Shown: positions 5,618 to 31,526 of the stretch, piece after piece
How positions within the stretch are numbered: the first letter of the stretch is position 1
Layout: every line of letters starts with the position of its first letter
DNA from: a virus
Direction: 5' to 3' (one strand)
Virus record (IMG/VR): IMGVR_UViG_3300038682_000184
Location: 1-43,972 of that record
Length of the DNA: 43,972 nt
Notes under the pieces: generated by a model
Databases searched by the model: none
Told to the model about the DNA's origin: nothing
Seen by the model: the letters and a program-made list of their open reading frames with translations, nothing else
Program-made: the position numbers and the translations under genes

Positions 5618-7080
5618 TGCCTATTATAGTTTTTAAAAACGGCAAAGCCTCAACAAAAGACACAAGTGGCGCTCAGTACTCCGGCGAGAAGATCCCCGGC
5701 GATCTCGAAAACTGGAATGTGCTATCATCGGACAGCAATTATATATTAGAATCAACATATGGTGATTTGTCTTCCAGGTCCATGACGCTTTTTCATACCC
5801 ATCCTTTTTGCAAAGGCGCAATAACCAAGCAGACCGAATATTCAGTGGGAGGCGGTCTGGCTTTTCGTAGTCAGCCCGATTGGTCAACGCTCGGTAAAAC
5901 AAAAGAATGGGGGAAAGATTGGGGCAAAGAGTTTCAGAAAATAGTCCATTATTATTTTCAGGAATTCGGTCTTTACGGCAAGCAGTCGGTTTTAATGCGT
6001 GGCGCTCTTGCCTCTGGCGGGTCAATACTCGATTTTGAACGGGACAGCAACGGCTATTTAACCGACTTAATCGATGTGGGCAACAATCAGATCGATTGGC
6101 AGCAGTCAACCGGCGATTATTATCTCGGAATTAAGGCCGACAAAATGAACCGAGGCACGGGTTTATTTCTTAGAAATGGCGAAAAACCCTCATATGTAGA
6201 CGCAAACGGCAATCAAAACCTTGTACATTTTTTTATCAAGGAATTACCCGAACAGCTCCGGGGCTATCCGATGCTTTACAGCATTATCAACCATGCAAAG
6301 CAGGACGACCGGCATACTGATGCAATAGTACAGCGGGCAGTCATGGAAGCTATTATGTGGGCATCGAAAGAAGGCAACGAAACCGATATGTCGGCTCAAT
6401 TTGACGACCTGAACAAGCGGACGCAAGAAAACACGATAGGCGGAAAGATTACAAGTGCAGTAGCGAAAATGTGGGGCAGTAAAGGCCAATCTCCAGGGGC
6501 AGTGCTACAGCTCGGACAGGGTGAAAAATGGAATGTTCACGACATAAAAACGCCGTCGAATAATTATGATCCTTTTAAACATTGGAATTTGCGTTATGTT
6601 GCAGGCGGAACAGGAACCCCGCCGGAAGTTATTCTCTCAGAATATTCAACGAGTTTTACCGCTCATAAAGGCGCATTAAATGATTTTGAAAAGTCGTACA
6701 TGTTTAAGCGTCGAATGTTTGCAGATACGGTAATGTATCCGGTAATAAAAGAAATTGCAAAAGACGCAATAATGCAGGGATTTATCAAAGCGCCGGGATT
6801 TTTTGACGGTGCATTTATGATTCAGCGGGCATATCTTCAGGGCATGTATTTAGGTCCAGTGCCGGGGCATATCAACCCATTGCAGGAAGTACAAGCGAAT
6901 ATTAAGGCCGTAGATGCGGCATTCAAACTGCGCTCAGATGTTGCAAGCATGAACGGCAACGAATGGGACAATTTTTTAACCGAGTGGCAAGAGGAATCTA
7001 TGGAATACGCAAAATACAGCCCCGAAGCAAGGGCGGCAGCAATACAAACACAAGAAATGGAGGCCGGAAGCGATGGCTAA
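5617..7080 (+). CDS. portal protein (lambda gpB family)
   Basis: 487 aa from the ATG at 5617. A GTG at 5611 is in frame, but the ATG fits GGCGGGG and the upstream stop better. The portal is the dodecameric ring at the head vertex through which DNA passes. Recognisable features are the N-terminal region, the central GGTGTPPEVILSEYSTSFTAHKGAL block typical of lambda-type portals, and the Glu/Ala-rich C-terminus. The end overlaps the protease start by 8 nt. Confidence 0.9.
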   Translation: MPIIVFKNGKASTKDTSGAQYSGEKIPGDLENWNVLSSDSNYILESTYGDLSSRSMTLFHTHPFCKGAITKQTEYSVGGGLAFRSQPDWSTLGKTKEWGKDWGKEFQKIVHYYFQEFGLYGKQSVLMRGALASGGSILDFERDSNGYLTDLIDVGNNQIDWQQSTGDYYLGIKADKMNRGTGLFLRNGEKPSYVDANGNQNLVHFFIKELPEQLRGYPMLYSIINHAKQDDRHTDAIVQRAVMEAIMWASKEGNETDMSAQFDDLNKRTQENTIGGKITSAVAKMWGSKGQSPGAVLQLGQGEKWNVHDIKTPSNNYDPFKHWNLRYVAGGTGTPPEVILSEYSTSFTAHKGALNDFEKSYMFKRRMFADTVMYPVIKEIAKDAIMQGFIKAPGFFDGAFMIQRAYLQGMYLGPVPGHINPLQEVQANIKAVDAAFKLRSDVASMNGNEWDNFLTEWQEESMEYAKYSPEARAAAIQTQEMEAGSDG

Positions 7081-20805: not shown

Positions 20806-21324
20806 ATGAACAGGAGCAGAAACAAAACAGTTAAAAAGTTAGCGGAGTTATGGAGGAATAGGCCGATAGTCAAAATCGCCTTATGACTCATCATGGTGTT
20901 TGCGATTATGGGTTGCTCATACGGATTTATGCCCGAAACCAGATGCAATGATATCGAAAGTTTATGCTACTACGTTAATGAGAATATAGATTATGTTTAC
21001 GATTGGGATTCTGTTTATGACACTAAAGAATATTATCAATCTCCAATGGAAACAGAATCATTAAGAACCGGTGATTGTGAAGATTTTACTATTTATTTTA
21101 TGTACATTGCATACAAAGAATTTGGAATAAAGCCTGATTTTGCAGTAGTCAAGGTAGATGATTTAGGCTATCACGCATTAGCAAAATACGATGGGTCTTA
21201 TTATGATTCAACAACCGGAATTATATTTGAAAGCCTTCCATGGGTATTTGAGGAATTATTCATTATAGATTACGACACAATAATGTTATTTTCAACATCG
21301 TTTTACACTAAGAGTATTGACTGA
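20806..21324 (+). CDS. transglutaminase-like lipoprotein, UGA inside the signal peptide
   Basis: Two in-frame parts: 26 codons from ATG 20806 (AGGAGC upstream), a UGA at 20884-20886, and an open frame from CTC to 21324. Read through, the product begins MNRSRNKTVKKLAELW, then a hydrophobic core spanning the stop, and a lipobox-like AIMGC. The mature part shows RTGDCEDF (Cys), GYHALAKYDG (His) and YDSTTG (Asp), the triad order of transglutaminase-like cysteine peptidases. ATG 20893 after the stop lacks a ribosome site and would give a signal with no basic start. Either a nonsense mutation or programmed UGA readthrough (UGA followed by C) explains it. Confidence 0.65.
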
Positions 21325-29898: not shown

Positions 29899-29927
29899 TT
29901 AACATTTTCCGCCTAATATGATATAAT
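29899..29927 (+). promoter_or_regulatory. TTAACA-type promoter of the lysis island
   Basis: TTAACA (29899-29904), 17 nt, TATAAT (29922-29927), 16 nt before the first lysis gene. Its -35 and TGATATAAT core equal those before the fibre genes. Confidence 0.75.
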
Positions 29928-29943
29928 TAAGCATGGAGGATCT

Positions 29944-30249
29944 ATGTCAGAAAGTGAAGCAATCCAGCCGAAAGATCATCATGTGAACTGGAAACGAATA
30001 GGGCGAATTTCGACGATTATTGGCGCTTTGGCTATTGCTGGGACAGCCTTCATATGGGTCGGTCAGACAAGTGCCGAGGTGAGAGACAATGCTTGCGATA
30101 TTGACAGTTTAGAAATGTCAGTTGAAAAGATTGAGGACCATAATAACACGGTGGATGTTAATCAGGGCGTAATCCTAAACGAATTAAAAAACATCAGCGA
30201 AACATTAAGAGAGATTAAGGCAGATATAGAGATTATTAAGGGGCAGTAA
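29944..30249 (+). CDS. membrane protein with coiled coil, lysis cassette
   Basis: 101 aa. Polar N-terminus, one membrane span (about 20-42, STIIGALAIAGTAFIWVG), then a coiled coil to the end (IDSLEMSVEKIEDHNNT ... LREIKADIEIIKG). The layout is like XhlA-type lysis proteins with the order reversed. It is first in the lysis island. GGAGG precedes the ATG. Holin, holin regulator or membrane anchor are all possible. Confidence 0.5.
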   Translation: MSESEAIQPKDHHVNWKRIGRISTIIGALAIAGTAFIWVGQTSAEVRDNACDIDSLEMSVEKIEDHNNTVDVNQGVILNELKNISETLREIKADIEIIKGQ

Positions 30250-30699
30250 ATGACATATACGGTTAGATTTGCACATCTTCAAAAAAAGCCACATTTAGCA
30301 ATTGGTGATAGAATCTTGCGGGGTGATTATCTCGCAACTTGCGGGAATACAGGTGCTTCTATGGGGCGACACTTGCACATTGATTGCGTTGAGGGCTTGA
30401 GACCGTCCGTGTGGACATTGGCAAATTCCGAGCACGGTGTAGTAAAATCATCACCTCGGCAGCTAAACTATTTTATCGATAAAGAGCTATTCGGCGGGAA
30501 TGATTTTGTGGTCACTACTCCATACGGGGATTATGCATATCAAAATGAGCTGAAAAAGGTACATCTTGCATATGACTTGATTCCGGTTGACGGCATATCC
30601 TGGGAATTGTATTGGAATAGATCTGCTCAAGGTACGGTGATTTATAATGAACACCATGTAAATTATGGTAATTGTTTAATGATAAGTTTTGAAGCATAA
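30250..30699 (+). CDS. M23-type endopeptidase with circularly permuted motif order
   Basis: 149 aa. M23 peptidases normally read HxxxD (zinc), then YAHL, then HLH. Here the order is FAHL (His9), GNTGASMGRHLH (His41, His43) and only then VHLAYD (His105, Asp109) followed by GTVIYNEHHVNYGN. All five expected zinc and catalytic residues are present. The N-terminus starts exactly at the strand that in normal proteins follows the YGNxVxI strand now found at the C-terminus, so this is a clean circular permutation. Likely the lysis endopeptidase cutting peptide cross-links. It is translationally linked to the preceding gene (TAAATG). Confidence 0.75.
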   Translation: MTYTVRFAHLQKKPHLAIGDRILRGDYLATCGNTGASMGRHLHIDCVEGLRPSVWTLANSEHGVVKSSPRQLNYFIDKELFGGNDFVVTTPYGDYAYQNELKKVHLAYDLIPVDGISWELYWNRSAQGTVIYNEHHVNYGNCLMISFEA

Positions 30700-30710: not shown

Positions 30711-30905
30711 ATGAAAAAGATACTTGAAAAGATAGGCGCATTTTTTGCGGTCAATAATGAGGTAAACGAGAATACCGTAATGGGCGTTATTGTACTTGTG
30801 TATATCTTTACGATGTACGCATTCGGCAATATAGAAACTGACGCTGAATTATGGACATGGCTTGGTTTTGATTCTCTGTTTTGGGGATTGAATTTGAAGA
30901 AATAG
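30711..30905 (+). CDS. small membrane protein, holin candidate
   Basis: 64 aa. A basic amphipathic start (MKKILEKIGAFFAV), a span around residues 23-40 (TVMGVIVLVYIFTMYAFG) and an aromatic hydrophobic end closing in KK. Size, charge pattern and position after the endopeptidase fit a holin. AAAGGAGC precedes the start. Confidence 0.5.
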   Translation: MKKILEKIGAFFAVNNEVNENTVMGVIVLVYIFTMYAFGNIETDAELWTWLGFDSLFWGLNLKK

Positions 30906-31024: not shown

Positions 31025-31089
31025 GCCGTAGAAATCGCCATAAAAATAAACAGAAACTAAAGGAGCATTCATGTGTGGAAGAAAATTAA
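31021..31089 (+). CDS. 22-aa basic peptide overlapping the spanin start
   Basis: ATG overlaps the previous stop; sequence MSRRNRHKNKQKLKEHSCV then EEN. It contains the GGAG used by the next genes and ends 19 nt inside them. If translated, it probably serves coupling. Confidence 0.25.
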   Translation: MSRRNRHKNKQKLKEHSCVEEN

Positions 31090-31526
31090 ATCATGGTTTT
31101 CGAATAGCAAGCTTAAAGTTATCGGCGGTGTTATTCTTACTGTTGGCGGTTTCCTTATTGGCATATTCGCAGGAAAACGAGCTGACGGCGGAGGAACTGA
31201 ACCAACCGGCGGATCTAACGTTGGGCGAACTGCGGGCGATATTGTCAGAGAACGAGAGCATCAGGAGCGATTACAGCGAACTGAATCAGAAATATCAGGA
31301 CAGCTTGATAGAACATCAGATGAGCTTGATGAAGTTAGAGCAAGAAATAGCGCTGTTGAAAATAGAAAGCGAAATACGGATGCAATCATTAGAGACGTTA
31401 AAAAACGAAACAATCTGGAGTGATGTCTGGACATTTGCAAGCGGCATGATTCTCGGGTATGGTGTTAATGAGCTTGTAGGCGATATCATGGAAACGTATG
31501 AAAATGATAGCGGCGGGATATTTTAA
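31071..31526 (+). CDS. signal-peptide, coiled-coil, membrane protein (spanin-like, frame A)
   Basis: 151 aa from ATG with GGAG 5 nt upstream. A basic start then a hydrophobic core (KLSAVLFLLLAVSLLAY, about 16-33) with a possible cleavage after SLLAYSQ, a coiled coil (about 55-115) and a C-terminal span (FASGMILGYGVNELVG). Two membrane anchors with a coiled coil between recall unimolecular spanins, which fuse the two membranes at lysis, but no lipoprotein Cys is at the expected position. It fully contains another ORF in the +2 register. Confidence 0.55.
   Translation: MCGRKLNHGFRIASLKLSAVLFLLLAVSLLAYSQENELTAEELNQPADLTLGELRAILSENESIRSDYSELNQKYQDSLIEHQMSLMKLEQEIALLKIESEIRMQSLETLKNETIWSDVWTFASGMILGYGVNELVGDIMETYENDSGGIF
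31073..31423 (+). CDS. overlapping membrane coiled-coil protein (spanin-like, frame B)
   Basis: 116 aa from a GTG that shares two bases with the ATG of frame A (ATGTG). GGAG is 7 nt upstream. A basic amphipathic start WKKIKSWFSNSKLK, a span (VIGGVILTVGGFLIGIFAG), a Gly/Thr linker, then a charged coiled coil (about 58-112) looks like an inner-membrane spanin. Frame A also looks like a real protein, so dual coding as in Rz/Rz1 pairs is proposed. Confidence 0.5.
   Translation: MWKKIKSWFSNSKLKVIGGVILTVGGFLIGIFAGKRADGGGTEPTGGSNVGRTAGDIVREREHQERLQRTESEISGQLDRTSDELDEVRARNSAVENRKRNTDAIIRDVKKRNNLE

Follow-up and report, generated by a model that had tools for sequence, protein, structure and literature searches.

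A probable phage endolysin with a circularly permuted M23 peptidase domain

The locus and its gene products

The window, meaning the whole stretch of DNA analysed, is a metagenomic virus record of 43,972 bases that also encodes a gpA-type terminase large subunit and a lambda-family portal protein. At 20893-21324 it further encodes a 143-aa protein whose transglutaminase-like matches (DUF553, Peptidase_C93 and Transglut_core) are weak and sub-threshold. The gene of interest, here named cpM23, begins with an ATG that abuts the TAA stop of the preceding ORF (Table 1). The upstream membrane-protein gene and cpM23, together 29944-30699, share one reading frame, with exactly one TAA between them, right before the ATG.

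The N-terminus of the product, MTYTVRFAHL, holds His9. His41 and His43 lie within GNTGASMGRHLHIDC, in the motif GRHLH, and the C-terminal part contains KKVHLAYDLIP, with His105 and Asp109, as well as GTVIYNEHHVNYGNCLMISFEA. A sequence-only reading of this DNA had proposed an M23 lysis peptidase in which FAHL and GRHLH come first and HLAYD last, with the VIYNEHHVNYGN strand after VHLAYD. Both statements hold for the ORF, and the motif order recurs in all 27 family members.

Table 1. Features in and around cpM23 (positions are those of the window)
Feature	Position	Strand	Size, basis or remark
cpM23 (circularly permuted M23 peptidase, probable endolysin)	30250..30699	+	149 aa
Residues 1-49, matching the canonical M23 C-terminal half, with FAHL (His9) and GRHLH (His41, His43)	30250..30396	+	Pfam M23 positions 45-87; hhalign columns 75-142, P 8.9e-19
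Residues 50-84, connecting the former C and N termini, limits approximate	30397..30501	+	Predicted helices 57-61, 69-75, 78-81; invariant Q71, F75
Residues 85-149, matching the canonical M23 N-terminal half, with HLAYD (His105, Asp109) and NYGN	30502..30696	+	hhalign columns 13-71, P 8e-7; half alone P 1.4e-7
His9 codon, presumed catalytic	30274..30276	+	27/27 conserved; role by analogy (PMC9662197)
His41-Leu42-His43 codons (HxH): His41 presumed catalytic, His43 presumed zinc ligand	30370..30378	+	Both His 27/27; role by analogy
His105 to Asp109 codons (HxxxD), presumed zinc ligands	30562..30576	+	His and Asp 27/27; role by analogy
Holin-like protein: one hydrophobic segment and coiled-coil-like tail	29944..30249	+	101 aa; weak sub-threshold DUF7365 match
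Membrane protein, holin-like	30711..30905	+	64 aa; hydrophobicity; no Pfam or PHROG match
Spanin-like protein: signal-peptide-like hydrophobic N-terminus and long helical coiled-coil-like region	31071..31526	+	151 aa; no family match
Spanin-like protein, other frame of the same DNA: N-terminal hydrophobic segment and coiled-coil-like region	31073..31423	+	116 aa; GTG start 2 nt after the partner's start
Sigma-70-like promoter TTAACA-17-TATAAT before the cassette	29899..29927	+	Consensus match only; regional number of such sites no higher than in shuffles

Family membership and conservation

Homologues were collected by a scan of IMG/VR and a scan of one genome per prokaryote species. After repeats and truncated copies were dropped, 27 members were left, two of which are still identical to each other. 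All are permuted, with a median pairwise identity of 44 %. Besides the window gene, 26 sequences share the permuted order with the catalytic residues intact; nearly all are from virus contigs, and nearly all members derive from metagenomic contigs.

His9, His41, His43, His105 and Asp109 are invariant (27/27); the sequence-only reading had stated that all metal and catalytic positions are kept in the window protein. Poor conservation of the VHLAYD segment in homologues had been named as grounds for refutation; given the presence of His105 and Asp109 in every member, that refutation does not apply. Q71, F75, N123, R124, Y139 and G140 are likewise invariant, and Y97 is conserved in 26/27. Conservation thus extends to the joining segment (about residues 50-84), which carries Q71 and F75.

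Two irregular loci were noted. L018 (about 5917-6390, on a contig shared with L004) is the sole homologue with a disrupted 5′ part, a deletion or frameshift in the AHL region that may reflect error or decay. On SOIB01000205.1, copies of cpM23 lie at both ends (L023 at the start, L024 at the end); they differ, at about 84 % identical DNA, and may be alleles of one phage or two copies.

Evidence for circular permutation

Along the chain of an M23 peptidase the motifs run HxxxD, YAHL, HxH. All members of the present family run AHL, HLH, HxxxD instead, and cpM23 is therefore treated as a permuted variant rather than an ordinary M23 member. The Pfam M23 model covers only residues 3-46, equivalent to profile positions 45-87 of 96, at 33.3 bits and thus above the gathering cut-off of 28.7.

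Profile-profile comparison (hhalign) of the family with nine canonical phage M23 domains gave two matches in swapped order. The first paired query 4-71 with canonical columns 75-142 (P 8.9e-19); the second paired query 82-152 with columns 13-71 (P 8e-7) and placed HxxxD on HxxxD. After the family profile was re-indexed at the old termini, a single match of 128 columns was obtained (P 2.2e-25).

Searching with a rotated sequence had been suggested as a check, and re-indexing raised the matches in the PDB, GenBank phage, Pfam and hhalign comparisons. Against PDB sequences the unmodified family profile reached a best E of 7.2e-7, with query 2-76 on ShyA 304-376; a second piece, insignificant by itself, placed query 131-149 on ShyA 282-299, just before the first. 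The re-indexed profile reached 1.6e-10, with alignments crossing the junction. In four members the Pfam score rose by 10-13 bits on re-indexing, and the match widened to start at profile positions 19-21. Among GenBank phages, a re-indexed consensus, written by eye from the alignment, found 300 records (best 3e-11); its control, the same letters in native order, found 59 (best 7e-6), all of them partial, with no place reaching 80 % of the query.

Predicted fold

AlphaFold2, run on a 13-member alignment, gave a mean pLDDT of 95.3 and a pTM of 0.90, with 135 of 149 residues at ≥90. The predicted elements are strands 2-10, 27-31 and 42-48, helices 57-61, 69-75 and 78-81, strand 86-90, helix 95-101, and strands 108-112, 119-121, 128-136 and 140-148. 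Read through the profile alignments, the model supports the canonical M23 strand order in rotated form, the new ends lying between the last strand and the first. The suggestion that these ends fall at a beta hairpin agrees with the model and the alignments, in which they would lie between strands 140-148 and 2-10, neighbours in canonical M23.

Sequential Foldseek searches of PDB and viral models returned no significant match, the best M23 match spanning 55 columns of the protein. Because Foldseek needs sequential order, such a null is expected for a permutation, and it is not positive evidence. The central proposal of the sequence-only reading, a circularly permuted M23 core, is supported by the swapped two-piece alignments, the gain on re-indexing, the conservation across 27 members and the predicted rotated strand order.

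Lysis cassette and neighbouring genes

The gene encodes a putative wall-hydrolase domain with no signal peptide, its catalytic strand starting at residue 2, and is adjoined by genes that in the window are holin-like by hydrophobicity only. The holin and spanin candidates of the window matched no known family in Pfam or PHROG. In relatives, recognised holins adjoin cpM23: Phage_holin_1 in L042 and GTA_holin_3TM in L025. These holins and the spanin-like gene pair of the window agree with the earlier argument that the neighbours point to a lysis enzyme. Judged from cassette context and sequence, cpM23 is most likely a phage endolysin.

Spanin-like pairs that overlap fully in different frames, with starts 2-7 nt apart, were seen at 12 of the 13 loci checked (the window, L008, L009, L011, L013, L014, L021, L022, L029, L030, L051 and L052), the offset in L016 being 49 nt. 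In seven loci the offset is 2 nt (ATGTG). The long product has a signal-peptide-like N-terminus, a coiled coil and often a C-terminal hydrophobic segment; the short product has an N-terminal hydrophobic segment and a coiled coil, with a lipobox-like FSGC in L030. Some 70 % of embedded spanins have an o-spanin start at 0.4-0.5 of the i-spanin length (PMC6139136), and the start-coincident layout therefore looks unusual.

Two relatives, L010 (6664-7754) and L012 (6698-7728), have a serine-hydrolase or lipase-like gene downstream of cpM23 (in L012 Lipase_3, E 0.0047, below cut-off). In both, the gene after it encodes a protein resembling a unimolecular spanin, with a lipobox-like start and, at the C-terminus, a hydrophobic segment.

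Domain fusions in relatives

In L042 (5248-6459) a 403-aa protein combines a subtilase domain (Peptidase_S8, E 8.9e-10) with a C-terminal cpM23, adjoining the Phage_holin_1 gene. Behind cpM23 lies a phosphodiester-glycosidase (NAGPA) domain in L031 (6001-7221; E 6.4e-16) and, with a weak match, in L019 (6001-7200; E 0.0077). These subtilase and phosphodiester-glycosidase fusions point to modular use of the permuted domain.

Origin of the permuted family

In a tree of re-indexed sequences, the 27 cpM23 members fall on one side of a branch and the nine canonical domains on the other, with support 99/99; the order among the canonical domains is unsure, since several of their branches are long. 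One origin of the family is probable, given the single clade and the joining segment that its members share. The permutation would stem from a tandem duplication followed by loss of the outer halves. No tandem-duplication intermediate was seen, each locus holding one family-matching stretch, and a scan with the re-indexed alignment for a canonical-order sister returned only contigs already known to carry the permuted family. No missing M23 N-terminal half was found upstream of cpM23, neither in the window, where the stop abuts the ATG, nor in any relative. A long upstream frame in L042 was considered as such a half and rejected, the frame being the subtilase domain.

Two homologue-bearing contigs (L022 and L023) bear the labels of Cloacimonadota and Stahlbacteria MAGs. 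Searches of 125 and 147 genomes from these phyla yielded no additional copy, and the contigs may therefore be binned phage contigs.

It is likely that a single old permutation gave rise to a distinct, undescribed, virus-borne clade of active M23 endolysins that has spread over diverse phages and been reused as a module (subtilase-cpM23 and cpM23-phosphodiester-glycosidase).

Catalytic site and proposed mechanism

M23 peptidases bind zinc through H(x)nD and the second His of HxH, and the first His of HxH, together with a His about 30 residues earlier, helps to activate water (PMC9662197). His9 sits 32 residues before His41, in keeping with that spacing rule (PMC9662197). By analogy, the zinc ligands of cpM23 would be His105, Asp109 and His43, and the catalytic residues His41 and His9. 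Y97 might serve as the oxyanion-stabilising Tyr.

The best overall explanation of the observed permuted order, conservation, confident predicted fold and cassette context is a permuted M23 zinc endopeptidase serving as a phage endolysin (estimated probability about 0.85). The gene would encode a soluble zinc endopeptidase of M23 fold with a circularly permuted chain, in which a helical segment of about 35 residues would join the old N and C termini and the new termini would fall in the hairpin between strands YGN..I and YTVRFAHL. The protein would accumulate in the cytoplasm until released by the phage holin. With zinc bound by His105, Asp109 and His43, and water activated by His41 and His9, it would cleave peptide bonds in the host peptidoglycan, and the spanin-like pair would act on the outer membrane. 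The chemistry is expected to be ordinary; the topology is what surprises.

The enzyme could instead be an active permuted M23 peptidase that works from the virion, as an entry lysin or tail-associated protein. Many of the M23 domains of phages are parts of tape measure or tail proteins, and in several relatives the cassette comes after tail-like genes. However, in the window and in most relatives cpM23 is a small free-standing protein, beside holin-like and spanin-like genes, and no other peptidoglycan hydrolase was present among the ten window proteins scanned with Pfam. A virion role is accordingly considered unlikely.

Degenerate LytM factors such as EnvC and NlpD lose the metal and catalytic residues, whereas these positions of cpM23 are invariant in 27 divergent members. 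A permuted M23 fold acting as a non-catalytic regulator of the EnvC and NlpD kind is considered very improbable.

Less credible still is a fusion of a truncated C-terminal half of M23 with an unrelated domain that contains HLAYD by chance. The restriction of the Pfam match to residues 3-46 would suit this reading, as would the behaviour of the C-terminal half alone, for which Pfam gives no match even with E values up to 10 allowed. However, that half by itself matches the canonical M23 N-terminal half at P=1.4e-7, HxxxD on HxxxD, far beyond 200 column shuffles (best P 0.015) and the reversed profile (0.2), and the matches improve on re-indexing. A chance HxxxD in an unrelated domain is rejected on this match and on the 27/27 conservation of His105 and Asp109; by sequence comparison, cpM23 is an M23 domain whose two halves have changed places. 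An assembly artefact or chimeric contig, conceivable for a metagenomic virus record, is rejected as next to impossible, since 26 other sequences (two mutually identical) from many different records carry the identical order in frame on independent contigs.

Significance and comparison with known systems

A literature search, in a collection from which most subscription papers are missing, turned up no permuted M23, LytM, lysostaphin or endolysin domain; the sequence-only reading had likewise known of no described permuted M23 lysin. A 2022 review of M23 peptidases does not mention permutation (PMC9662197), and no permuted M23 was found in GenBank phages. If the interpretation is correct, cpM23 would be the first case of a natural circular permutation in the M23 zinc-peptidase fold. 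M23 enzymes are common cell-wall hydrolases and are in development as antibacterials. A natural permutant would reveal which chain connections are dispensable for the M23 active site, and would offer new termini for attaching other domains. Permutation would also explain why such genes give merely partial M23 matches and escape sequential fold searches.

The protein resembles the M23/LytM domain (PF01551; LytM, lysostaphin, ShyA and phage M23 endolysins) in having both halves, all zinc and catalytic positions and the predicted strands. Unlike canonical M23, it has HxxxD after HxH, a conserved helical segment joining the old termini, and new termini in a hairpin. Additionally, a conserved N-R pair (N123, R124) before the GxV strand is absent from the nine canonical M23 domains aligned. 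The nearest precedent is found in the permuted NlpC/P60 proteins (YaeF/G6R, LRAT, C92 and C97 groups), which have a permuted fold within a superfamily that includes peptidoglycan peptidases (PMC6403190, PMC10318531). NlpC/P60 is a cysteine-peptidase fold unrelated to M23, however, and the precedent is one of topology only. As a gene cluster, the locus resembles the holin-endolysin-spanin cassettes of tailed phages (lambda, P2 and T1 types), in which small membrane proteins lie side by side with a soluble wall hydrolase and a spanin-like pair, yet the overlapping spanin-like genes at cpM23 loci, with starts 2-7 nt apart, differ from typical embedded spanins (PMC6139136).
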